From contig JAACJG010000017.1 of assembly GCA_009917695.1 (NCBI GenBank), forward strand, positions 62,001 to 126,000: a DNA stretch of 64,000 nt. Reading direction: 5' to 3'. The DNA is from Candidatus Rifleibacterium amylolyticum (lineage in GTDB: Bacteria > Muiribacteriota > Ozemobacteria > Ozemobacterales > Ozemobacteraceae). A model generated the notes under the pieces. That model saw nothing but the letters and a program-made list of their open reading frames with translations. It did not search any database and was not told where the DNA came from. Of the stretch, positions 21,736-36,483 are shown piece by piece (positions within the stretch are counted from its first letter, which is position 1; each line of letters starts with the position of its first letter). Made by a program: the position numbers and the translations under genes.

Positions 21736-24732
21736 TCAATCGAATTCGAGCAGCACGATAGAGACGTCGTCGCCCCATGAGGTGGTGCCGGTCAGCTTTT
21801 CAAGTTTGTCGTACAACGCCTCAATGGGATTGTCATCGTTCTTAACCTTTTCTGCAGTCATTCTTGCGAATTCCTTGTAGCCGATCATCTCGCCATCAGG
21901 CAGTAGAGCCTCGACCCAGCCGTCTGTATAGAAAACAATCGCGCTCTTTCTGCCAATATTCTTCTGAACACCAGGAATTTTAAGGCTTTTGGTAGCACCC
22001 AACGGAAAAGCGTTCAGTTCGATGAAATCATGATCACCTTCTGGTTTGACATGTATCAACGCCGGGTGCCCGGCGCCGGCGAGAGCGAAATCACCGCTGC
22101 GCGAATCGATGCGCATCAGCATGATGGAACTCATGCGCAAACGCTTGAGAATCGGCAGCAGATGCTGGTTGATAGTGGTCAGCAATTCCTGCGGAGTCCG
22201 ATTTGCCTGCCTGACGACAAGCGGAATAGCACTCGAAATCATGGCAACAACCACAGCTGCAGCAAGGCCGTGCCCGGTAACATCACCAATGCAAACATAA
22301 ACATGGTTTTCGTCATGGGGATCGACAAAATAATCGTAGAAGTCGCCGCCAACCTGTTCCATCATTACTGAGCGACCGGTAACGCGAAGGCGACCGAGAC
22401 TCAGACTGTCGGTTGGAAAAAGACCTTCCTGAAGAGCATGTGCCAGGTTAAGCTGGTCAAGACCTTCTTTTACCTGTCCGAACAACAGAGTGAGCTCGAG
22501 CAGTTCACCAACTGCGTTGTTGATGACCGGCAACCGACGTCCTGCTTTGAACAGCGGTTCAACTGCTGTTTCAAGTTCGCCGACCGGTTGCAGTAGAAAA
22601 CGCCTGAGAATATAGATTCCCAGCATTATCCAGAGAGTGCCAGGCAGCATGGCAGCAGCCAGTGCAGCAGCAAGCTGTCTGCTGTCACTCTCTACGCTGG
22701 CGAGAGGCCTGGAACGAGCTATTACCAAGTGTTCCATCGCCTCGGAACACTTCAGCAGATAGAGATTTCTTGTCCCATCCTGGCTTTCGGCAATAAATCG
22801 ACAGCATTCACCAGGATTTTCGAGACCGTTGGCAATTGCTGTCATTGCTCTGGGAGCCGTTTTTGAAGCAAAATCAAGTCCCTCGACATCGCGGTTGAAA
22901 AAGTATGACGCACTGCCATCGTCATCGGCACGGGCCCTTTCTATCAATTTCAGAACAAGCGCAAAAGTGAAATGACCGGCGCGCCAGTGCAGCAGCAGAA
23001 AGTTCATCAGATCATTTTCCTGATCACTGAGTATAAAGGTGTAATTAACGATTTTTTCTGATCCTGACACCACACGGGTTAGTTTGCCAAGATCTGCCAT
23101 GGTTTCGTTAACGTAATCCTCTTCATCAACACCGGCCGCAGCGGCCATGACCGACATGGTTCTGCCCTGCTCGCTGATCGTCACCGCGGTAGAACGCTGT
23201 TCGATGATGCGACGGCACACGCTGGTCGCCAGTCCCGACAAAAGCTTGTCGATAACCGGGTCGTTCTTGTCGCCAACCCTGTAGCGATCAGGACCCAGCA
23301 AGTGGCTTAGAATCTGCTCTTCACTAATCAGGCCATTCTCGCCGCCCTTAAGCCGAAACAAACTCTGATACAGCTCTTCGATTTTGCCGCCACGATTGGT
23401 TACCCTCTGCAGAAACCACTTGCGCAGATGTTCAGGGCGTCTGGCAATATATGTATAAGTTGGTCTGAACTGAAACCAGGTCGGCGACAGCTTTTTGCCG
23501 TCCTGCGTAAAAACATAGAGATAACCGAGGTTCCATCTACCTGAATTAACCTGCTCACACCATTCAAGAACACTTTGCTGGCTGGAAAAAGGGCGCTGTG
23601 TCTGCAGATACTGCGTGATTTCGTGCTGTTTCGAGAATGTGTAGGTGCGGAATTCATTTTCAAGGCTCTCGATCTCGTGTGAAAGCTGCGAATATCTGCT
23701 GTTCAGGGCATTCGAACTGCCGGAATACATTTCAAGATACCCGATGAGCAACAGCCCCAGCAGCGGCAGTCCAATCGCCGGACCGAGAAACAGTAACAAC
23801 CCCGCCCGCAGAGATTGCGAATCGACCGGAAAATTTGTTCTTTCAATTCTCGCAAAACCCGCCAGCCATGAAATGCTTAGCAACACCAGAGCAAGGACAG
23901 AAAGAATCTCCCAAGCCAGCAGCGACAGCGAAAAAGGCGCGCGCAGAACCAGTAGATTCTCTTCAAGGCCAACCGTCTGATAGACATACCGATAGTCACT
24001 GCCAACCCCGGTTTCATCAGGGCTCAAATTCCAGTAAGCAAGATTATGCCGCCATTCAGCTGCAGATGACTCTGAAAGCATTTTCCACAAGCTTTTCGAG
24101 TCGTGTTGAACCTGCACAAAAAAATGACCCATGGCCTTCTGCCAGTCTACCGAATTCTGTTCAAAAAGCAGGATATACGAGTATTGACGCTCAGCAATCG
24201 TCTGCAGACCCTGACATACCCACCAGTCGTTTTCAGGTAACGGCAGACTGTAGATAAAATCACGGCGTGGCATTGTGTAGAGCAGGTGCCCAGGCAGGTC
24301 AATAAAATCTGTTTTGACCCTGATTTTTGTATCCATCATGGGAATAAGGCTGTCGGCAAACAGCATCTGCAACAGTGGTGCGAAATCGCCGGCCAGGCTG
24401 CCGCTTTTCTGGCCTTGAGCTGCGACAAAAAGACAGGGGTTTGTTACGCCCTGTTCGACAAGACTCGCGCTGACCAGTTTATGCCATGTGCTGATATTGT
24501 CAGCCGCGATCGCCTGTTTGCAGGCAGCCCGCCATATCACCGACAATCTTGCCGCCGTCGATTTGATTCTCAGCAGTTTTTCGGCATCAAAACGCAGGGT
24601 ATCAGATAATACTTCACGTTCATAGTTTCGCCTGATCGCCGAACTCTGCCAGATACCGACAGCCAGAAACAGCGCAAACGGCAGCCACAGAAGAATGCCG
24701 GCAAACACGCGAAACTTCTGGTGTCTGACCAT
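21736..24732 (-). CDS. Membrane-bound SpoIIE-family serine phosphatase (active-site complete)
   Basis: A 998-residue protein. It has an N-terminal hydrophobic segment (GILLWLPFALFLAVGIW) and an extracytoplasmic part to about residue 270. Two further membrane segments follow (SLLAWEILSVLALVLLSISW and AGLLLFLGPAIGLPLLGLLL), then a second large sensory part. One more segment lies near 705 (AALAAAMLPGTLWIMLGIYI). The C-terminal PP2C/SpoIIE domain has QVGGDFYDYF, IGDVTGHGLA near 815, AGAGHPAL, FYTDGWVEA and WGDDVSIVLL, so all metal-binding Asp residues are present. It should dephosphorylate a serine on an anti-anti-sigma-type partner. Its ATG overlaps the stop of the paralogue upstream (TAATG). 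Confidence 0.88.
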   Translation of the reverse strand: MVRHQKFRVFAGILLWLPFALFLAVGIWQSSAIRRNYEREVLSDTLRFDAEKLLRIKSTAARLSVIWRAACKQAIAADNISTWHKLVSASLVEQGVTNPCLFVAAQGQKSGSLAGDFAPLLQMLFADSLIPMMDTKIRVKTDFIDLPGHLLYTMPRRDFIYSLPLPENDWWVCQGLQTIAERQYSYILLFEQNSVDWQKAMGHFFVQVQHDSKSLWKMLSESSAAEWRHNLAYWNLSPDETGVGSDYRYVYQTVGLEENLLVLRAPFSLSLLAWEILSVLALVLLSISWLAGFARIERTNFPVDSQSLRAGLLLFLGPAIGLPLLGLLLIGYLEMYSGSSNALNSRYSQLSHEIESLENEFRTYTFSKQHEITQYLQTQRPFSSQQSVLEWCEQVNSGRWNLGYLYVFTQDGKKLSPTWFQFRPTYTYIARRPEHLRKWFLQRVTNRGGKIEELYQSLFRLKGGENGLISEEQILSHLLGPDRYRVGDKNDPVIDKLLSGLATSVCRRIIEQRSTAVTISEQGRTMSVMAAAAGVDEEDYVNETMADLGKLTRVVSGSEKIVNYTFILSDQENDLMNFLLLHWRAGHFTFALVLKLIERARADDDGSASYFFNRDVEGLDFASKTAPRAMTAIANGLENPGECCRFIAESQDGTRNLYLLKCSEAMEHLVIARSRPLASVESDSRQLAAALAAAMLPGTLWIMLGIYILRRFLLQPVGELETAVEPLFKAGRRLPVINNAVGELLELTLLFGQVKEGLDQLNLAHALQEGLFPTDSLSLGRLRVTGRSVMMEQVGGDFYDYFVDPHDENHVYVCIGDVTGHGLAAAVVVAMISSAIPLVVRQANRTPQELLTTINQHLLPILKRLRMSSIMLMRIDSRSGDFALAGAGHPALIHVKPEGDHDFIELNAFPLGATKSLKIPGVQKNIGRKSAIVFYTDGWVEALLPDGEMIGYKEFARMTAEKVKNDDNPIEALYDKLEKLTGTTSWGDDVSIVLLEFD

Positions 24733-27533
24733 TACGATGTTCTCCTGAGTATGACCAGTGAGCGGTCTTCATCGGCATCCCCGCCGCCAGTTTCGCTGTA
24801 TGTCAGACGCTGCCAGAGAGCATCGAGTTCAGGCGGAGTCGCCATACCGGGATTGGCAGCAATTTCAGCGGCCAGCCTGACACGACCGTCAGCAGCCGAC
24901 TCAGAGGCGAACAGCTTGAGTCCGCCCGATGTCGCAAAAAGCAGATATGAGCCGGCTGTAAGTGTTACCTTATGGCTGCAGATAGCCGGAGGTTGTATCT
25001 GGCCAAGCGGTTTCGAGTCGTCGTCAAGCGATGACACATCGGAGCCGGTAATGAGAAGAGGTGCATTATGGCCGGCATTGGCTATTTTCATGCTGCCATC
25101 GTCTTTTGCAATCAGGCACAAAAATCTGATCTGCTGGTCGTATTTTTTGTCGCGCATGAAAAAATCGTTGAGTGCCCGCAGAATATCTGCCGGATCAGCA
25201 TGATCAGGGCCGGCCATCGAGATGAACATCTTGATGCGGGCGCCCAGCAACGTAGCCGGAATCGGCTTGCCGGAAATTTCACCTATGCAGAACAGCAGGC
25301 GATTTTCTGAGAGAGGCAGAGCTTCGATGTAATCGCGGCCAAGAAACCTGCCGGGCAGAAAAAATGATTCAAGCTGAATGCTGCCGACGACTTCTTTTCC
25401 CTCGAATACCAGCTTCTTACGTAATGGTTGAGCATTGTAAATCTCGGCGAAAGTATGGGCAGCCTGCTTGAGCCCCGAGAAAATATGGCCTTCTGAGCTG
25501 GTTTCAGTTTTCAGAAGCCGGTCGAACTCGTGATTTTTAATGCCGGCCAGGGCTTTTGCCAGCCGTCTGACCGAAAACGCCAGATTACTCGCAATGAAAA
25601 TGGCCGACAGTGTGGCTATAGAAAATGAAAATGCCACAAACAGCATGATGAACGAAACAATACGATGATTGCTCTGTTCAATTGGTTTTAACGGCGTGGC
25701 TCCGAGCAGCACGACATCACCCATGTTGCGGGCATGAATGCCGGTAACCAGGCAGTTGCCCGTGCCCGGCAGGTTGATGACTCGATCGACAGTTCGTTTG
25801 AGGCGCCAGACTTCTTCGCTCAGCATCAGCAGATCAGCGTTCAGCAGCAGCTGGTCAGGCATGCTCGAACGTGGCCCCCCAGTGCTCATTTCTACAATTC
25901 CGAGGCGTATATCGCTTCGCTTTTGCGCCAGAACTGTCAGATAATTTCTGAATACCTGTTCTGGATCGAGAAACGCGACAAGAAATCTTGTGGTTTTCGG
26001 CTTATCATGGCCTCTTACGAAAGACAGATAGATGTTCCGCTGATATCCGACCCAGTTCAGCTCTACTATTCTGCCAAGATTCTTCAAAACGCTGTGCGAG
26101 AACGATCTGACATAACTCAGATTGAAAGTTGAGTCGGCTTTTTTCGGGGGAATATTGTTCAAATGGGCCACAACATTAGTTACCAGGAATCCGGCAATTT
26201 CGCGCAAAGTTCTTCTGCGTTCAGGAATCTCGGCGAATTTCTCGACAACCTCGCCGGCTTCGTTCATCAGATAAACGGCTTCAGCCATACCGCCAAGCTT
26301 CGCAATCAGCTTGTCATTCCTCTCAGCAGGCGCAGACGCATCGGCAAGATTTCTCTGCACCGAATTGAGAAGCCCGGCAAGACCTGCTCTATGTCTGATC
26401 AGCCCACGATCGATATCATCGAGCGCGCGCTCGATCGTCCGGTGCTGTTGTCTTACCGTATTCTGCGTCGAAGTCTGCAGATAATCGAAACACCATTGCG
26501 AAAACAGCGCCAGCACCGGTATCATCGCCAGCAGAATGGCAGCAGTCATGACTCGACGCAACGATATGTCGGCCCGTCTTACCACCAGCAGGTATCTGCC
26601 TATAAATGCAGCCAGCATAAGAAAACTGCATTGAACCAGCACTGTCAGCAGCTTCCAGCGGTCGAGTAAACTTTTGTAATAGCCTTCGACCTTGACGTTC
26701 CGGCGCAATTCTATACTCAGACCGTTTTTTATGAATGCCTTCTCTTCTATCCAACCGGTCTGAAAAGCCTTGGTGGGAAAGGGTCGGCGGTCGGCTGCTT
26801 CTTGAGAAGCTCTTTTCAGCGCCAGGCGATAATGCCCTGGTAGCGCCGATCGAACGCTGCGCATGACTTCCTGAATTAGATTACCTTCTGCCTGCGGTGA
26901 AGCTTTGACCAGCACCACAATATGCGCGATCTTACTGCTCAACGGAGCAGCCTTGTCAGCATTCGGGAAAAGCCGCCACCAGCCGGCATGCGAATATCTG
27001 CTGCAGCCCTTGAGTTCGATCAGGGTTTCCGGGCTACGGCTGATTGTCGCAAGGGCCTTGCGCTTGCCGATAAAGGCCCCCGAAAGAGCGTTGCTGCGAC
27101 TTTCGGTCATGCCTTCAGGGTGCAGGAGATAAGACATGACCTGCTCAGAAACAGCTGCCTTTTCAAGAAGAAAGCCTTCAACAGCGACTCTTTTGCCAGC
27201 TGGCGAGTAAAAGAGAAAACTCGCCTTTTCAGATAATGGCCGCAGCAGATCGAAGGCGTAAGCGTTTTCGTTTTTACGCAACATTTCGGCAGCCTGCCGC
27301 AGAATGAAAGGGTAATAGGTCTCTGAGGCGCTGAATCTGGCAACTTTCTGAACGATCAGTGCCATCTGGCCGCGTTCATGGGTTTCCCAGTCCTGCATCA
27401 CCTGGCGATACTTCTTTTCGAACCATTGCGAAATGACAAGGCTCGTGGCAAAAATGAGAACGGCGACGAACAAAAGCACTACACCCGGCTTTTTAAATAC
27501 TGCATCCGGAATTGTCGTCGAATTGGAAGACAT
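24732..27533 (-). CDS. Membrane-bound SpoIIE-family paralogue with altered metal ligands
   Basis: I start at MSSNSTTIPDAVFKKPG (933 residues), because the extra upstream codons to 27623 lie in a dispersed repeat. No good Shine-Dalgarno is visible. The layout mirrors the downstream paralogue: N-terminal membrane segment, sensory part, membrane pairs near 295-350 and 640, then a SpoIIE-like domain. Motifs are degenerate. GD-x-TGHG is GEISGKP near 751, the TDG motif is TSGGLKL near 868, and the end is DEDRSLVIL. Two metal-ligand Asp residues are therefore replaced by Glu and Ser. It may be a pseudo-phosphatase that regulates its coupled partner (inference). Confidence 0.82.
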   Translation of the reverse strand: MSSNSTTIPDAVFKKPGVVLLFVAVLIFATSLVISQWFEKKYRQVMQDWETHERGQMALIVQKVARFSASETYYPFILRQAAEMLRKNENAYAFDLLRPLSEKASFLFYSPAGKRVAVEGFLLEKAAVSEQVMSYLLHPEGMTESRSNALSGAFIGKRKALATISRSPETLIELKGCSRYSHAGWWRLFPNADKAAPLSSKIAHIVVLVKASPQAEGNLIQEVMRSVRSALPGHYRLALKRASQEAADRRPFPTKAFQTGWIEEKAFIKNGLSIELRRNVKVEGYYKSLLDRWKLLTVLVQCSFLMLAAFIGRYLLVVRRADISLRRVMTAAILLAMIPVLALFSQWCFDYLQTSTQNTVRQQHRTIERALDDIDRGLIRHRAGLAGLLNSVQRNLADASAPAERNDKLIAKLGGMAEAVYLMNEAGEVVEKFAEIPERRRTLREIAGFLVTNVVAHLNNIPPKKADSTFNLSYVRSFSHSVLKNLGRIVELNWVGYQRNIYLSFVRGHDKPKTTRFLVAFLDPEQVFRNYLTVLAQKRSDIRLGIVEMSTGGPRSSMPDQLLLNADLLMLSEEVWRLKRTVDRVINLPGTGNCLVTGIHARNMGDVVLLGATPLKPIEQSNHRIVSFIMLFVAFSFSIATLSAIFIASNLAFSVRRLAKALAGIKNHEFDRLLKTETSSEGHIFSGLKQAAHTFAEIYNAQPLRKKLVFEGKEVVGSIQLESFFLPGRFLGRDYIEALPLSENRLLFCIGEISGKPIPATLLGARIKMFISMAGPDHADPADILRALNDFFMRDKKYDQQIRFLCLIAKDDGSMKIANAGHNAPLLITGSDVSSLDDDSKPLGQIQPPAICSHKVTLTAGSYLLFATSGGLKLFASESAADGRVRLAAEIAANPGMATPPELDALWQRLTYSETGGGDADEDRSLVILRRTS

Positions 27534-27576
27534 ATATTGAATATACGCTATGAAAGTTGCCTGAGCAACTCTAACC

Positions 27577-27755
27577 GTCATTGCGAGGAGGGCGCAAGCC
27601 CGACGCGGCAATCTCACAGACAAAAGGATTAGCTCAGAGCTGGCTTTTTGGCCATGGATGGCCTAATACATTTGCGCCACAGGAATGGCGCTCTAATGTG
27701 ATGTCTGCGGCATACTGCTTCGGCCGCTACGATCCTCGCAATGAGGATTTTTAAA
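27577..27755. repeat. Dispersed CATTGCGAGGA-family repeat, copy 3 (composite)
   Basis: The region begins CGTCATTGCGAGGAGGGC and ends GATCCTCGCAATGAGGA, so the outer ends are inverted relative to each other. Inside are AGCTCAGAGCTGGCTT, the inverse of a segment at 985-1000, and ATGTCTGCGGCATACTGCTT, related to the inverse of 970-985. It is non-coding and lies upstream of the SpoIIE paralogue pair. The start of the longer reading frame there is translated repeat. Confidence 0.6.
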
Positions 27756-27779: not shown

Positions 27780-28700
27780 CTATTCGATAAGTTTAAACGA
27801 ATATTTGTATGGCGCCGGGCTGTTCAAAAGTGGTCTGAACACCATCAGACCACCGACCTGTTTGTTGTCGCGCAAATATTGTTCAAAGTCCTGATCGACT
27901 ATGCGATTTAGTTTAAGCGAAGCATGGCGCAGAAAGCGCTTGTTCTTCTTCTCGATAAAAAATCCCATATGGGTGACATCGAGACCTTCTTTGTCGGTTA
28001 CCAGCGCAACGACGTCGCCAGAAAACAATGGCGCCTTTTTCTCCAGTATTACCGTGCGCGGGAAATACCACATCAGTTGCGGCTTTTCGGCAATCATGAA
28101 GCGGTCTTCCACGTAAAAGGTGCGGTTGTCGCCTACCCGGTTCAGATAAAGCTCGCGACTCAATGCCAACGGATGGCTGCGTGCAATGTTGGTCAGATAA
28201 CCCTTCTGCTCGTTAATGTCGCCCCACAATGAGGTAAAATGGTTGCGATGATGATTCATCAGCGGCTGACCGCCGGCATCATACATGATGTCGATGAGCC
28301 GGCAGAGAAATTCTTCCTGATATGCCGGCTTTGTACTGGCGGCGAGAGCAAGCACATGTTCGACATAGGTCATACAGTCGAGAAAGGTCATGCTGGTTGG
28401 TAGAATATTTACCGGCAACGGTCTGGCATTGCTGGCTTCAACCTTTTTGACGGGCTTGCGCTGCTTCTTGATGCGCTTTTTGGTGGCCGGATGATAATGG
28501 CGCCCGATCAGGTATTTAGAGACGAATTCAATGCGGCGCTGTACCGGCAGTTTGTGAGCACTTGCGATCAGACGCTCGACTTCTGCAGCATCGCTCGATT
28601 TTCGCAGACCGACAACCGGCGCGGCCGCTTCCCCGGCAGCATGAAGTCCGCAAGTCAGCGCAATAAATCCAAGCATCAGCCAACCAGTAAATGATTTCAT
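27780..28700 (-). CDS. Secreted DUF1460 protein (NlpC/P60-like amidase fold)
   Basis: The start is at MKSFTGWLMLGFIALTCG, with CGGAGG upstream; 306 residues and a signal peptide. The DUF1460 pattern is clear: MTFLDCMTYVEHVLALA (candidate catalytic Cys), HFTSLWGDI, GDVVALVTDKEGLDVTHMGF (candidate His), FLRHASLKLNRIVDQDFEQY and GGLMVFRP. Members with known structures have an NlpC/P60-like fold and are thought to cleave N-acetylmuramoyl-L-alanine amide bonds in peptidoglycan fragments. Export fits a periplasmic cell-wall role. A basic insert, KKRIKKQRKPVKK, precedes the catalytic part and is atypical. Confidence 0.82.
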   Translation of the reverse strand: MKSFTGWLMLGFIALTCGLHAAGEAAAPVVGLRKSSDAAEVERLIASAHKLPVQRRIEFVSKYLIGRHYHPATKKRIKKQRKPVKKVEASNARPLPVNILPTSMTFLDCMTYVEHVLALAASTKPAYQEEFLCRLIDIMYDAGGQPLMNHHRNHFTSLWGDINEQKGYLTNIARSHPLALSRELYLNRVGDNRTFYVEDRFMIAEKPQLMWYFPRTVILEKKAPLFSGDVVALVTDKEGLDVTHMGFFIEKKNKRFLRHASLKLNRIVDQDFEQYLRDNKQVGGLMVFRPLLNSPAPYKYSFKLIE

Positions 28701-28807
28701 GATCTTTGTTTCCTCCGGAGTAATACAACTGGCTGTTTTCTCAGCAAAAGCCGTGGCGAACAGCACACACAAGCAAAATACCACAGCCCCGTAAAATTAC
28801 CAATGAA

Positions 28808-30365: not shown

Positions 30366-30614
30366 ACAAAAGAGCAGTATCTGTTAAGCCTCTATCTTTT
30401 GAGATCATTCATGGTATTAGCCACAACAACAAGTCTATTTTGGCGCACAACGGAATAATGCGGGAAGAAATTTGCATGATCTGAAATTTGATCTTTTGCT
30501 GCCTCGATGTATAGTCGCATTCTGAGCTAAATCGAGCATCTTTACAAAATGGGGGGTTAACATTTCAAGTCGAATGTGTTAGGGTAGTCAAAAAATGACG
30601 TGAGAGGCGCTGCT

Positions 30615-32852
30615 ATGGCACAATTGATTGCCCATGTTAAGCAAAACAGTGAGGGGAAATGGGATTCTCCGCATGATTTGATTGCTCATCTCAATAATAC
30701 TGCCTGCCTTGCAGAAAAATTTGCCAGTGCATTCAAGTCAGAGAATTGGGCAAAGACCCTTGGTTTACTACATGATGCCGGCAAAAGCACAGAAAACTGG
30801 CAGGAATATCTTAAGGCCAAAAGCGGTTATGGCTACGATTCAGAAGCCCATCTTGAAGGCAAAGTTGGCAAACTGGATCATTCAAGCATCGGTGCCAGAC
30901 TTGCCGAAGAAAAGTTCAAGGCTTGCGGCCGTTTTCTGGCATATTGCATTGCCGGTCATCACGGCGGTCTGCCAGACTTCTTTTCAAGCGAAAATACCGG
31001 TTCCGGAGCTTTGCAGAACCGACTGGCCCGAACATCGATTGATGAAGTTGCCAAAGAGATATGTGCTCTGGCCGATTCTGCTGTTTTGTCGAGGCCACCA
31101 TTTGCATTTCCAGATGGACTCTCGGCTTCGCTGTGGATCAGAATGTTGTTTTCATGCCTTGTCGATGCAGATTTTCTTGACACAGAAGCATATATGGACC
31201 CTGATAAAGCGTCTTTAAGATGCAATTTCGCCAAAATAGAAGAGCTTCTCAAAACGTTTCGTGCCTATATGCAACAATTTGCTGTAAATGCAGAAAAGAC
31301 CCGAGTTAATGCCATTCGCCAGAAAATATTGCAGGACTGTATCGATGCTGCAAGCCAGGAGAAGGGAATTTTCTCTCTTACGGTTCCAACTGGTGGTGGC
31401 AAAACCCTTTCGAGTCTGGCATTTGCCTTGGAACATGCAAAAAAACATGGGCATAATAGAATCATTTACGTGATCCCTTACACCAGCATCATCGAGCAGA
31501 ATGCCGATGTTTTCAGGCGGGCTTTGGGGGCCGATAACGTAGTGGAGCACCACTCAAACCTTGATTCAGAAGATGCTACCCCGGAAATGAGATTGGCCTC
31601 GGAGAACTGGGATGCACCGGTTATTGTTACGACAACAGTGCAGTTTTATGAGTCTCTTTTTTCTGCGAAGCCTGGAAGATGCAGAAAACTTCATAACATT
31701 GCCAATTCTGTTGTCATTCTTGATGAAGCTCAGTTGATCCCACCTGATTATTTGAAACCGATACTGAAGTCGCTTCAGTTGCTGGTTGATTATTATTCGG
31801 TTTCTCTCGTTATCTCTACGGCAACTCAACCGGCACTGGAAAGCCGACAAGTCGGTCAGGAAAAGTTCGAAGGCCTCACTGCCGGTAAAATACGAGAGAT
31901 TATTACAGATGTAGATTCTTTGTATGAGGATTTGAAAAGAGTTGAGGTAAATCTGCCGGAAAGTTTTGACGAGGCACTGTCTTTGTCGGAAATAGCCGCG
32001 CGTTGTTCCCAGCACGACAGGGTGCTTTGTGTCGTTTCAGATCGAAAAAGCTGTCGCGAATTGCACAAGCTCATGCCGAAAGGCACGATACATCTTTCAG
32101 CCCTGATGTGTGGGCAGCATCGCTCAGACAGGATTACTCAGATCAAAGAAAAACTGAAGACTGATGAACCGGTAAGGGTTATCAGTACACAGCTCGTAGA
32201 AGCTGGCGTAGACTTGGATTTTCCTGTGGTTTATCGTGCAATCGCCGGCCTTGATTCAATAGCCCAGGCAGCTGGCCGATGTAACCGTGAAGGATTGCTG
32301 GAAAAGGGAGAGGTTTTTGTATTTGTGAGCGAGAAAAAATCGCCACCGGGAATATTGCGAAAAGCTTCTGAGACGACACAGAACATTCTTTATGGCAGAC
32401 GTGATGACCCTTTGACGCGAGAGAACTTTGACAGATTTTTCAAAGAACTCTATTGGAAAGCAAATTCTCTTGACACCAAAGATATCGTAAGCTTGTTGTC
32501 ACCAGATATAGACTGCTTTGGGATCCAGTTCAGAACAGCTTCTGATCGCTTCAAGTTGATCGATGACTCAATGCAGAAAGCAATAATTGTCAAATACGGA
32601 AAAGGTGAAAAATTGCTCGAAGATATCAGGCTAAATACCGGAAATCCTGCATGTCTCAAGCTGTTATTGCGTAAGTTGCAGCGTTACTCGGTAAACGTCT
32701 ATACCAACGATTTCAACCGGCTTTTGCAAAGAAGGTCTATCGTTGAGGTTGTTCCTGGAGTTTTTGCGCTGACAACTTCAATGGAATATTCAGACGATAC
32801 TGGTTTGCTGGTAGATGAAAATTCTGCAGACCCAGAATCTTTTGTAATGTAA
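30615..32852 (+). CDS. cas3: Type I-C CRISPR helicase-nuclease Cas3
   Basis: I prefer ATG at 30615 with AGAGG upstream; a GTG at 30600 is the alternative. 745 residues. The N-terminal HD nuclease has TLGLLHDAGKSTENWQEYL and AYCIAGHHGGLPD. The helicase part has VPTGGGKTLSS (Walker A), VILDEAQLIPPDY (DEAQ box), ISTATQPAL (motif III), and STQLVEAGVDLDFPVVYRA then AQAAGRCNREG (motifs V-VI). Cas3 is recruited by Cascade and unwinds and degrades target DNA. It is the first gene of the locus; about 250 bases upstream hold no gene and no strong promoter. Base use becomes visibly more AT-rich from here. Confidence 0.95.
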   Translation: MAQLIAHVKQNSEGKWDSPHDLIAHLNNTACLAEKFASAFKSENWAKTLGLLHDAGKSTENWQEYLKAKSGYGYDSEAHLEGKVGKLDHSSIGARLAEEKFKACGRFLAYCIAGHHGGLPDFFSSENTGSGALQNRLARTSIDEVAKEICALADSAVLSRPPFAFPDGLSASLWIRMLFSCLVDADFLDTEAYMDPDKASLRCNFAKIEELLKTFRAYMQQFAVNAEKTRVNAIRQKILQDCIDAASQEKGIFSLTVPTGGGKTLSSLAFALEHAKKHGHNRIIYVIPYTSIIEQNADVFRRALGADNVVEHHSNLDSEDATPEMRLASENWDAPVIVTTTVQFYESLFSAKPGRCRKLHNIANSVVILDEAQLIPPDYLKPILKSLQLLVDYYSVSLVISTATQPALESRQVGQEKFEGLTAGKIREIITDVDSLYEDLKRVEVNLPESFDEALSLSEIAARCSQHDRVLCVVSDRKSCRELHKLMPKGTIHLSALMCGQHRSDRITQIKEKLKTDEPVRVISTQLVEAGVDLDFPVVYRAIAGLDSIAQAAGRCNREGLLEKGEVFVFVSEKKSPPGILRKASETTQNILYGRRDDPLTRENFDRFFKELYWKANSLDTKDIVSLLSPDIDCFGIQFRTASDRFKLIDDSMQKAIIVKYGKGEKLLEDIRLNTGNPACLKLLLRKLQRYSVNVYTNDFNRLLQRRSIVEVVPGVFALTTSMEYSDDTGLLVDENSADPESFVM

Positions 32853-32863
32853 GAGGAGGAAGA

Positions 32864-33574
32864 ATGCATAACTGGTGTATTGAGGTCTGGGGCGACTATG
32901 CCTGTTTTACCCGCCCTGAAATGAAGGTTGAGCGGGTAAGCTATGACGTGATGACTCCATCGTCTGCCCGCGCTATTTTTGAGTCGATTCTCTGGAAACC
33001 GGCAATCAAATGGCACATAACAAAGATTGAAGTTCTGAACCCTATCAAATGGGTTTCTGTGCGACGCAATGAGGTTAAAAAAGTCGTTTCAAGAGGCGTT
33101 CCAGGTAAGACAAGTGGAATTTATATTGAAGATGAGCGTCAACAAAGAGCCGGACTTTTTTTACAAGATGTCAGATACAGAATTCACGGCTATTTTGAGT
33201 TTATTTCGCCTGAAAAGAGAATGCAGAAGCCTCCTGATGCACCAGAAAAGTGGGCAGACGATCAGGAAAAAAACACCGCTGCTGCCGCAGATGAAACAGA
33301 AGCTAAATACGCAGCGATGTTTGAGCGGAGGGCAAAAAAAGGCCAGTGCTTCAATCGACCATATCTTGGCTGCCGTGAGTTTTCATGCTACTTCAAGTTA
33401 GTTGATCCAGATAAACATGTGTCAAAACCTATTGAAGATACCAGAGAACTTGGCTGGATGCTCTACGATATGGATTTTTCAAATCCATTAGTGCCAATGC
33501 CGGCTTTTTTCAAGGCAACTATAAAAGGAGGCGTTATAAATACTGATCGTCGACAAATTGAGGTGCGTCAATGA
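32864..33574 (+). CDS. cas5: Type I-C Cascade subunit and crRNA endonuclease Cas5c
   Basis: A 236-residue RAMP protein: VWGDYACFTRPEMKVERVSY at the start, VMTPSSARAIFESILWKP, WHITKIEVLNPIKWVSVRRN, and a C-terminal DVRYRIHGYFEF then RPYLGCREFSCYFKLV with ELGWMLYDMDF. In type I-C the Cas5 (Csd5/Cas5d) protein itself cuts the repeat RNA and stays on the crRNA handle, because Cas6 is absent. GAGGAGG precedes the ATG. Its stop overlaps the cas8c ATG, so synthesis is coupled. Confidence 0.95.
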   Translation: MHNWCIEVWGDYACFTRPEMKVERVSYDVMTPSSARAIFESILWKPAIKWHITKIEVLNPIKWVSVRRNEVKKVVSRGVPGKTSGIYIEDERQQRAGLFLQDVRYRIHGYFEFISPEKRMQKPPDAPEKWADDQEKNTAAAADETEAKYAAMFERRAKKGQCFNRPYLGCREFSCYFKLVDPDKHVSKPIEDTRELGWMLYDMDFSNPLVPMPAFFKATIKGGVINTDRRQIEVRQ

Positions 33575-35364
33575 TTTTGCAGGCATTGAAAGAGTATTAT
33601 GATCGTAAGGTTGTCGATGGTTCGATTGCTCGTGATGGCTGGATTCGGGGCGGGTTAGATTTTTTGTTGGTTCTTGATTTGGACGGTAAATTGCTGAATA
33701 TCAATGATTTAAGGGAATCAAATGGCCGGAAGAAGGTTCCGCGTTTATTAAATTTACCAAACATTGGAAAGCAGGCATTAAAGCATACTAATAGCGGCAA
33801 AGATGCAAATTTACTGTGGGATAATGCGTCGTTTGTTTTTGGGCTTGGCGACAAAGGTCAATTACGATTACAAAGTATGATTTCAACAATTGATAACTGG
33901 TTCGGAGAACAGAGTGATCCCGGTATCAAAGCAGTACATGCCTTTCTGACCAAAGGACTTAAGGATCGCAACCATTTCAACCTTGCTTTGGAGCATCCAG
34001 AATATGGTGAGACGTTCATGGAAGGTAGCGTAAAAATCAGTTTTCGAGTGCTTGAGACAAATTACAATGTTGTTTTCGATTCGCCAGTGGTTGTTAAAAC
34101 ATTAGTTGGGGTAGGTAATTCTAGTAATACAGAAAAAGACGGGATTTGTTTAGTAACGGGAGAACAAAATGTTCCAATCGAAATGACTCATTCTGTAATT
34201 AAAGGTGTTTGGGGGGCGCAGTCTTCTGGTGCATGTATTGTAAGTTTCAATAATGATACTTTTAATTCATATGGGAAAACTCAGTGTCTAAATGCACCAG
34301 TTAGCAAAACTGCTGCATCTCAATACAGTAAAGCAGTTAATTTTTTACTCGATTCAACAAGTCAGCGAATGCAGGTCGGGAATACGTCTGTGGTTTTCTG
34401 GTCAGAAAGGCGATCATCGTTTGAATCAGACTTCTCATTCTTTTTTAATGAGCCGGAAAAGGACAATCCTGATTCTGGAACGCAAAAGATAAGAGTCCTG
34501 TTTGAATCAGTAAAGACAGGGGCATATATGGAGGATAACGGAGAACAAAGATTTTACGTTTTAGGATTAGCCCCGAATGCTGCACGAATTGCCATCCGTC
34601 TATGGAAAGTTGGAACTATTTCAGAATTTGCTGACAACATCAGGCGGCATTTTGAAGACTTAAGAATCATAAAACCAGATTATGAACCTGAATTTTACTC
34701 AATATGGAAATTGTTGGCTAACGTATCGTCACAAGATGATATTGGCAACCTTCCTCCAAAATTGGCTGGTGACTACATCCGAGCTATTTTGGAAGGTTTT
34801 CCATATCCAACCACTGTATTACAAGCTGTTTTGGGACGTATTCGCTGTGACGTAAAGGATATGAAAGGGAAGCCAAAAGATCGGATCAATTCTGTTAGAG
34901 CAGCAATAATCAAATCATACCTGAATCGTTATCAGCATTTTTATGACAAGAAACATAAGGAGTTAACTATGGCATTGGATATCAATCAACCTTCAGTTGG
35001 TTACCAGCTTGGCAGATTGTTTGCAACGCTGGCAAAAATTCAGGATGAGGCTCAACCGGGAATTAATGCCACCATTCGTGAAAGATTTTATGGAGCTGCT
35101 TGTGCTTCTCCGGTAACGGTTTTTGCCAATCTGCTGAAACTGATGAAGCACCATCTTGCCAAGCTGCCTAACAAAGGCAGAGCAATAACCTTCGATCGAC
35201 TCGTTGGCGAGATTATGAGCCATCTTTCAGATTTTCCGGCTCATCTGGATTTGCATGAGCAGGGCAGATTTGCGATTGGTTATTACCACCAGTGGCAGGA
35301 TTTTTTCCCTAAATCCAATGCGAAAGGCACTTCAGAAAAAACTTTAGAGGCAGGAGCAAACTAA
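33571..35364 (+). CDS. cas8c: Type I-C Cascade large subunit Cas8c (Csd1)
   Basis: A 597-residue protein, the usual Csd1 size. It opens with ILQALKEYYDRKVVDGSIAR and has the family-typical GICLVTGEQNVPIEMTHSVI, then GACIVSFNNDTFNSYGK, SQYSKAVNFLLD and VVFWSER, FYVLGLAPNAARIAIRLW, and a helical C-terminus. Cas8c recognises the PAM and helps recruit Cas3. The last quarter doubles as the small subunit from an internal start at 34969. The gene is AT-rich compared with the flanking chromosome, consistent with transfer of the locus. Confidence 0.95.
   Translation: MILQALKEYYDRKVVDGSIARDGWIRGGLDFLLVLDLDGKLLNINDLRESNGRKKVPRLLNLPNIGKQALKHTNSGKDANLLWDNASFVFGLGDKGQLRLQSMISTIDNWFGEQSDPGIKAVHAFLTKGLKDRNHFNLALEHPEYGETFMEGSVKISFRVLETNYNVVFDSPVVVKTLVGVGNSSNTEKDGICLVTGEQNVPIEMTHSVIKGVWGAQSSGACIVSFNNDTFNSYGKTQCLNAPVSKTAASQYSKAVNFLLDSTSQRMQVGNTSVVFWSERRSSFESDFSFFFNEPEKDNPDSGTQKIRVLFESVKTGAYMEDNGEQRFYVLGLAPNAARIAIRLWKVGTISEFADNIRRHFEDLRIIKPDYEPEFYSIWKLLANVSSQDDIGNLPPKLAGDYIRAILEGFPYPTTVLQAVLGRIRCDVKDMKGKPKDRINSVRAAIIKSYLNRYQHFYDKKHKELTMALDINQPSVGYQLGRLFATLAKIQDEAQPGINATIRERFYGAACASPVTVFANLLKLMKHHLAKLPNKGRAITFDRLVGEIMSHLSDFPAHLDLHEQGRFAIGYYHQWQDFFPKSNAKGTSEKTLEAGAN
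34969..35364 (+). CDS. cas11c: Internal small subunit Cas11c, translated within cas8c
   Basis: Inside cas8c, AAGGAG (34957-34962) lies six bases before an in-frame ATG at 34969. This would give a 131-residue helical protein, starting MALDINQPSVGYQLG and sharing the Cas8c stop. Independent translation of Cas11 from the 3' end of cas8c has been shown experimentally for type I-C systems. Here the ribosome site and frame are directly visible, and the codon position is right. The product would form the Cascade belly and stabilise the R-loop. Confidence 0.8.
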   Translation: MALDINQPSVGYQLGRLFATLAKIQDEAQPGINATIRERFYGAACASPVTVFANLLKLMKHHLAKLPNKGRAITFDRLVGEIMSHLSDFPAHLDLHEQGRFAIGYYHQWQDFFPKSNAKGTSEKTLEAGAN

Positions 35365-36483
35365 ATGACTACTATCAGCAAACGCTATGATTTCGTCCTC
35401 TTTTTCGATGTCCAGGATGGCAATCCAAATGGTGACCCTGATGCAGGGAATCTCCCCCGTGTCGATGCTGAAACGGGTCACGGCCTCGTTACCGATGTCT
35501 GCCTTAAGAGAAAGGTCAGAAACTTTGTTGGGTTGAGTAAGAGTGAGCAGGCACCTTATGATATTTATGTGAAAGAAAAGGCGGTGTTAGGAAGAGCGCA
35601 TGTTGAAGCATTTAAAGAATTGAAAATTGAATTAGGAGAAGGCGGCAAAAAAGAAATCTCCAACAAAATAGCAGAGGCTTTATCTGATCTAGCTCTGCCG
35701 GAAGGATTAAGTGTTTCAGAAGAAGAAAATGACAGTGGAGAGGTAAAAGCATTCTTGAATGTTGCTTTCGATTTCGACAAAAAACTTCTGGCTGAGTTTT
35801 GGAAAGAGAATAAAACATTTGCGACAAGCAATAAAGAGGCGAAATCATTGATTGACAACTTATCAAAGTCAGTTAAATCAAGAAAACCAAAGGCTGAGGA
35901 GACCGAACAAGGTCGAAAATTCATGTGTGAAAAATTCTTCGATATTCGAGCTTTTGGTGCAGTTCTATCCTTAAAATCGGCTCCCAATTGTGGCCAAGTT
36001 CGTGGACCAATTCAATTTACTTTTGGTCGATCTGTCGAACCGGTTATTGCCCTTGAGCACAGTATTACCCGGATGGCTGTTGCCACGGAAGCCGAAGCAG
36101 AAAAACAAGGTGGAGGCAATCGCACGATGGGCCGAAAATCCACTGTGCCCTATGGTCTCTACCGTGCTCATGGATTCATTTCAGCCCCATTAGCTGAACA
36201 AACCGGCTTTTGCGAAGAAGACCTTCACCTGTTTTGGGATGCTCTTAAGAACATGTTTGAACACGATCGCTCTGCCGCCCGTGGCATGATGGCAACGCGT
36301 GGACTTATTGTTTTCGAGCACAACTCAAAAATGGGCAATGCTCCAGCCCACGACCTGTTTGACAGAGTCTCAGTGAAGCGGGCTACCCCGGAAAATACTC
36401 CCGCTAGAAAATTCAGTGACTACCGCATTGAAATTAATGAGACTTCAATGCCAGAAGGCGTAAGAATAATCAGAATGGTATGA
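35365..36483 (+). CDS. cas7: Type I-C Cascade backbone Cas7c (Csd2), enlarged
   Basis: A 372-residue RAMP protein starting [20 protein letters not shown], then [15 protein letters not shown] and [13 protein letters not shown], then [19 protein letters not shown] and a C-terminal [20 protein letters not shown]. These are diagnostic of Csd2, the multi-copy subunit that lines the crRNA. Typical members are about 290 residues. Here roughly 80 extra residues (about 90-175, Lys/Glu/Ser-rich) sit between [12 protein letters not shown] and the CEKFFDIR motif. It begins immediately after the cas8c stop and overlaps cas4 by ATGA. Confidence 0.95.

Follow-up and report, generated by a model that had tools for sequence, protein, structure and literature searches.

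Overlapping genes for two SpoIIE-like membrane receptors, one with altered metal ligands, and the many related pairs in a family of Candidatus Riflebacteria

We have analysed a window of 64,000 nucleotides (the whole stretch of DNA under study, which lies on a 154-kb contig) from an uncultured Candidatus Riflebacteria bacterium. At 21736-27533 it carries two open reading frames for SpoIIE-like proteins that overlap by TAATG, both located where the initial annotation had placed them. In the following, U denotes the upstream gene or its product and D the downstream one. The features of the locus are these:

24732..27533, reverse strand: U, upstream gene; 933-aa receptor with four predicted membrane segments (4-TM) and a predicted pseudo-phosphatase SpoIIE/PPM domain (GRDYIE, GEISGKP, TSG, EDRS)
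21736..24732, reverse strand: D, downstream gene; 998-aa receptor with four predicted membrane segments (4-TM) and an intact SpoIIE/PPM domain (GGDFYD, GDVTGHG, TDG, GDD)
24730..24734, reverse strand: stop-start overlap TAATG of U and D, read from the sequence
24735..25340, reverse strand: SpoIIE domain of U, C-terminal 202 codons, three of four metal ligands changed
21739..22347, reverse strand: SpoIIE domain of D, C-terminal 203 codons, intact
27540..27568, reverse strand: possible promoter of the pair (TTGCTC, 17 nt, TATATT), found by eye and weak

The list of open reading frames extends U to a TTG at 27623, while the other copies in the genus start close to the ATG at 27533, and therefore the end coordinate first given for U is right. 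An AGGAG, Shine-Dalgarno-like, lies inside U immediately ahead of the TAATG junction. The junction reads TGATG in genome G002, TAATATG (a 1-nt gap) in G001 and G005, and ATGA in a distant pair, G015:C102; that is, the two genes overlap or are 1 nt apart in all five copies read. The possible promoter ends 6 bases ahead of the start of U, and its 17-nt spacing is also found in G001, G002 and G005; a scan did not flag the stretch 27540-27568. The transcript of the pair may be leaderless. Upstream of the pair, at 27783-28784, lies a gene for a protein like the N-acetylmuramoyl-L-alanine amidase AmiA (PF07313), and in G001 and G005, as judged by eye, U appears to have this gene ahead of it as well. 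Elsewhere in the window we have noted Type I-C CRISPR-Cas genes (Cas3, Cas5c, Cas8c and Cas7c, at 30600-36483) and, from 39172 onward, a CRISPR array with a 64-nt period and 41 copies in the stretch searched.

Both proteins are built in the order N-terminal TM, sensor, two central TM, second sensor, fourth TM, helical linker and C-terminal SpoIIE/PPM domain; each has four membrane segments and two sensors, which are presumed to be extracytoplasmic. Profile comparison gives only 20% identity between U and D across 413 aligned columns, and the alignment is confined to the later part of the second sensor together with the linker and the SpoIIE domain. Structure predictions (AlphaFold) from 4 sequences for U and 5 for D reached mean pLDDT values of 39.6 and 47.7, and the models are too poor for use. 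A plasmid protein search with U returned 8 partial matches, all below 60% identity.

Against the Pfam SpoIIE model (PF07228, curated cut-off 25), U scores 69.7 bits and D 112.8 bits. The metal ligands of Bacillus subtilis SpoIIE are given as Asp610, Asp628, Asp746 and Asp795 (PMC3517971); Mn1 is described as bound by Asp628, Asp746 and Asp795, and a second site would be formed by Asp610, Asp628 and Gly629 (PMC3517971, PMC8080068). We placed these positions by alignment and by the chain positions of 3t91 and 5ucg. For D795 we took the leading Asp of the DD motif, which lies 167 residues past the GD Asp in 3t91 and 5ucg (equal to 795-628), a placement that assumes no gap near the alignment ends. 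All four Asp residues are present in D. In U, D628 has become Glu (GEISGKP), D746 Ser (TSG) and D795 Glu, and D610 is retained; the Gly preceding D610 is Arg, only in the window copy of U. The motifs quoted for both proteins in the initial annotation (GDVTGHG, TDG and GDD; GEISGKP and TSGG) are thus exact. Its statement that U has lost two metal-ligand Asp residues holds for the loss but not for the count, since three of the four SpoIIE ligands are altered. U would accordingly be unable to hold a normal metal centre, and we infer from the residues that D should be an active phosphatase and U an inactive one.

The search with U covered 24 genomes of the family. Of the five other genomes of the genus, three (G001, G002 and G005) carry U, at 53–56% identity, the G001 copy being split over two contig-end pieces. 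In G003 and G004, U was not found at E up to 1e-30 and D was not found at E up to 1e-60. Outside the genus, there are distant matches to U in five genomes, at 21–30% identity. When we followed up the earlier suggestion to check whether the Asp losses are conserved in orthologues, they appeared in 4/4 same-genus copies (window, G001, G002 and G005), with the motifs GEI[S/A]GKP, TSG and E/A-D-R-S; the D795 position is Glu in the window and G005 copies and Ala in the other two. D is intact, with its four motifs, in the window, in G001, in G002 and at L046, where the match ends where the match on G005:C12 ends.

We have further calculated dN/dS over the last 202 codons of U, its SpoIIE domain, and obtained 0.15 for G001-G002 and 0.24 for G005-G002, with 0.04 for the SpoIIE domain of D (G001-G002); these are simple Nei-Gojobori counts with dS near or above 1, so that the ratios are rough. 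Several window-G002 values were saturated at synonymous sites and were left out. Overall, the SpoIIE domain of U is under purifying selection, and it is constrained less than that of D. A strain-specific decay of U is rejected, given the same losses in all same-genus copies together with the purifying selection. The same two observations support the proposal that U is a pseudo-phosphatase, as far as sequences can indicate this.

Two other explanations can be weighed against these data. If the domain of U were decaying after loss of its function, the pairing would reflect the history of tandem duplication only. The SpoIIE domain of U is indeed less conserved than that of D (identity between window and G002 of 0.49 vs 0.70), but its frames are uninterrupted in the pieces read from four genomes, the two TGA codons in the G005 match fall outside its 926-aa open frame, and dN/dS stays at 0.15–0.24 with identical losses in all copies. 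This makes decay the least probable of the explanations considered here, and a very poor candidate. It is also conceivable that U has kept a phosphatase activity on a modified metal centre, in which Glu replaces Asp at two ligands beside the retained D610. The change of D628 to Glu is conservative, and Glu occupies the D795 position in the window and in G005. However, D746 is Ser in 4/4 copies, D795 is Ala in 2/4, GHG has become GKP in U, and dN/dS of the U domain is ~4 times that of D (0.15 vs 0.04), so that we judge a surviving activity of this kind to be improbable.

In a tree of 37 proteins taken from the subgroup of the window, one branch (value 99) separates the 19 U members from the 18 D members. 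The branching orders of U and D are nearly alike, with G011 placed differently. The distant pair G015:C102, from another genus, joins the window pair in the tree, with values of 97 on the U side and 100 on the D side. In its U, D746 is lost (TDG to SNG) and the other ligands are kept, while in the sister pairs G015:C84, G020:C1, G008 and G013 all four Asp are retained in U. The loss in U therefore looks stepwise, with D746 lost first and the others within the genus of the window, as read from few taxa with long branches.

The window pair belongs to a large set of similar genes. The window's genome has 48 SpoIIE matches, 46 of them over the cut-off, and 35 of their open reading frames are of at least 850 aa. 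We have taken a census of pairs in this genome and in G002, G010 and G020. The three comparison genomes gave 149 PF07228 rows; with two of them in a single open reading frame, this amounts to 148 entries, from which we left out 20 whose open frames do not exceed 634 aa. The census set holds 136 proteins, 135 of at least 850 aa and one shorter partner of a frameshifted gene, and resolves into 51 pairs and 34 unpaired genes, the latter group taking in two convergent couples (G000:C8 and G002:C43). After G020:C1:104457 and its partner were dropped, the frame being seemingly broken inside the SpoIIE domain, 50 usable tandem pairs remain across the four genomes, 15 of them in that of the window.

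The long SpoIIE genes (≥850 aa) form 44 arrays of 2, 4 or 6 members and never of 3 or 5, where an array comprises genes on the same strand with a domain spacing below 3600 bases and shorter SpoIIE neighbours are left out. The labels U and D were assigned by position within the array. The gap to the first start lies between -25 and +20 in 40 of the 50 usable pairs and is -4 in 21 of those. In the 30 pair proteins encoded by the window's genome, a hydropathy scan places four main segments at similar positions, and some of the proteins have one or two additional weak peaks. HAMP domains work as dimers. At E up to 0.1, 27 of these 30 proteins show one, and the window pair shows none at E up to 1. 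Within this phylum, a profile built from the 30 proteins gives 7 to at least 22 matches at E up to 1e-60 in each of the 24 genomes of the family; in the other 15 phylum genomes it finds 0 to 5 weaker matches, with any match at all in 10 of the 15.

As a separate arrangement, we have observed two long SpoIIE receptor genes that converge as an inverted couple with overlapping 3' ends (L025, G000:C8:334640-337564 on the forward strand and 337539-340400 on the reverse strand). The domain spacing on G002:C43 equals that of this couple.

We have then compared the ligand positions across the census. A non-Asp residue at one or more ligands occurs in 17 of 100 pair members vs 0 of 34 unpaired long genes (Fisher p 0.0065, uncorrected for relatedness); at two or more ligands the numbers are 11/100 vs 0/34, which is not significant (p 0.065, likewise uncorrected). 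Since a non-Asp residue likewise stands at a ligand position in 9 of the 38 shorter SpoIIE genes, the contrast between paired and unpaired genes is valid for the long class only. On the tree, the losses require at the fewest 7 changes, or 6 under the stricter rule of two or more lost ligands. Both members are intact in 35 of the 50 pairs, one is altered in 13 and both in 2, the last being the C8 pair and its G002 copy. Alterations affect U in 10 pairs and D in 7, and in the window's genome an altered member is present in 4 of 15 pairs. One-sided loss of the active site thus seems, by sequence comparison, to have happened several times in the lineage.

Two altered forms may be described individually. 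In the pair at G000:C8:79175-85080 (L023), U is without all four ligands and D has one changed (Glu at D628), and the pair on G002:C43 is alike. In addition, a SpoIIE protein of 688–689 aa in which TDG reads TNG is encoded at G000:C8:318758-320824 (L024), G002:C43:354858 (L129) and G020:C7:326170 (L180); it is possibly a separate conserved inactive form.

The upstream and downstream members of the pairs fall into largely separate and largely mirrored clades. On the 136-protein tree, the U/D labels need 7 changes, and the division of U vs the rest needs 8, where shuffled labels average 41. In the window's genome, the distance matrices of U and D correlate at 0.86 over the full length (as high in 0/2000 permutations); by part, the correlation is 0.87 for the sensors and 0.46 for the SpoIIE domains (32/2000). 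The values in G002 are 0.87 for the full length, 0.84 for the sensors and 0.61 for the SpoIIE domains, and those in G020 are 0.64, 0.62 and 0.23 (108/2000 for the last). In G010, with five pairs, they are 0.13 for the full length (757/2000) and 0.09 for the SpoIIE domains (787/2000). A single ancestral split into U and D is rejected by the AU test (p 0.0012, with long branches present; 14 of the 15 pairs of the window's genome, the C8:81527/84499 pair left out). The two roles have therefore arisen more than once or been exchanged deep in the tree.

The even-sized arrays and the mirrored clades suggest that U and D of a pair act as a unit. As joint duplication of neighbouring genes could mirror the trees without any contact between the products, the mirroring is support for this and not proof. 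The same data bear on another explanation, in which U and D would be separate homodimeric receptors that share an operon, U serving as an inactive PPM adaptor like RssB. An inactive PPM adaptor of this type is known in Escherichia coli RssB, as described in PMC12143880; the low identity between U and D would allow each its own interface, and the fold of U is kept under selection. Against it, mirrored clades and arrays of only even size suggest joint working, and losses in either partner, with none among the 34 long unpaired genes, fit a shared complex better. We consider two separate homodimers to be unlikely.

As to the substrate, no anti-sigma kinase or anti-anti-sigma protein was said to be encoded next to the pair, and our search agrees: the 154-kb contig has zero STAS or HATPase_c_2 matches. 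In the whole genome, none of the 30 pair proteins has a STAS gene closer than 24.7 kb or a HATPase_c_2 gene closer than 14.7 kb. That is, no partner-switching module of the RsbU-RsbV-RsbW type, with STAS and kinase genes adjacent, was found at the pairs of this genome. Two SpoIIE genes outside the pairs sit 34 and 35 bp from a STAS gene; the pairs would therefore act on proteins in trans. There are 13 STAS matches over the curated cut-off. The SiaC family, considered as a possible substrate, has 0 matches in this genome and equally none in 14 control genomes.

It could also be imagined that the PPM domain of U is a trap or decoy that holds phosphorylated STAS proteins and limits the access of D to them. 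The family is reported to dock its substrate through surface loops (PMC11418112), so that docking could outlive the loss of ligands; yet every pair in this genome is more than 24 kb from the nearest STAS gene, and we hold a trap to be highly improbable.

Based on the above analyses, we regard as moderately probable that the pair forms a heteromeric membrane receptor in which U allosterically controls the phosphatase D. The closely joined, presumably coupled, translation would make U and D in the same place, and their PPM domains would pair through the switch helices into a heterodimer. Dimerisation by switch helices is described as controlling SpoIIE and RsbU, and RssB and SiaA are reported to make contacts of a similar kind (PMC12143880, PMC8080068). 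D would be the phosphatase, and U the allosteric half that sets the switch of D in response to signals of its own; a dead partner could still set the switch of a live one. The target would most likely be a phosphorylated STAS protein encoded elsewhere. The heteromer is favoured because the junctions are joined, the losses are conserved, U is constrained, the arrays are even, the clades are mirrored, the losses are one-sided, most pair proteins of this genome have a HAMP, and related PPM proteins dimerise through their switch helices. On the other hand, it is weakened because 35 of the 50 pairs are intact and two are altered in both members, shorter SpoIIE genes show losses as well, the SpoIIE domains correlate less than the sensors, and the window pair has no detected HAMP; it is weakened as well by the discordant placement of G011, by the rejection of a single origin of U, and by an excess of losses that is not significant under the stricter rule.

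For the Riflebacteria family as a whole, we would propose only tentatively, as somewhat less than probable, a large receptor system of obligate heterodimeric phosphatases in which a pseudo-half arose repeatedly and on either side. If this were true, there would be ~15 heterodimeric pairs in this genome, with many receptors feeding fewer STAS proteins, and the pairs would parallel, in bacteria, those eukaryotic receptor pairs in which one partner is catalytically dead. With 46 SpoIIE vs 13 STAS matches, the lineage would have invested heavily in receptor phosphatases. The control of PPM phosphatases by dimerisation is described for single-protein dimers; here, natural mutation would have separated the regulating half from the catalysing half, which would make the switch-helix model directly testable. 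Among the open-access papers listed by our searches, titles and abstract openings gave no description of such phosphatase pairs.

Among known systems, SiaA of the Pseudomonas aeruginosa SiaABCD system resembles the pair proteins in joining a membrane sensor, HAMP and PPM in one chain; partial matches to the SiaA model at E up to 0.01 are seen for 28 of the 30 (best E 7.6e-20). SiaA and a kinase are reported to act on SiaC as a couple in which SiaA is the phosphatase; SiaA is drawn with two membrane spans, whereas the pair proteins have four, and its operon also holds siaB and siaC (PMC7647112). The pairs, in contrast, consist of two tandem receptors without a nearby STAS gene. Moreover, the first of the 30 proteins (not of the window pair) scores 48.7 bits, below the cut-off of 700 for SiaA equivalogs (NF038263), and a search of the window pair at E up to 1 found no HAMP of the kind that SiaA has between the last TM and PPM. 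The catalytic domain family of U and D is also that of Bacillus subtilis SpoIIE and RsbU, whose activity is described as controlled by dimerisation through the switch helix (PMC12143880, PMC8080068); SpoIIE and RsbU, however, are described as single-protein dimers, and here two receptors are encoded together, one with changed ligands. RssB of Escherichia coli is like U in having a PPM-derived pseudo-phosphatase domain that takes part in regulation. According to PMC12143880, RssB combines a C-terminally truncated PPM domain with a receiver domain and serves as adaptor in the degradation of RpoS. U, in contrast, carries its domain at full length, is predicted to sit in the membrane, and is encoded together with an intact relative.
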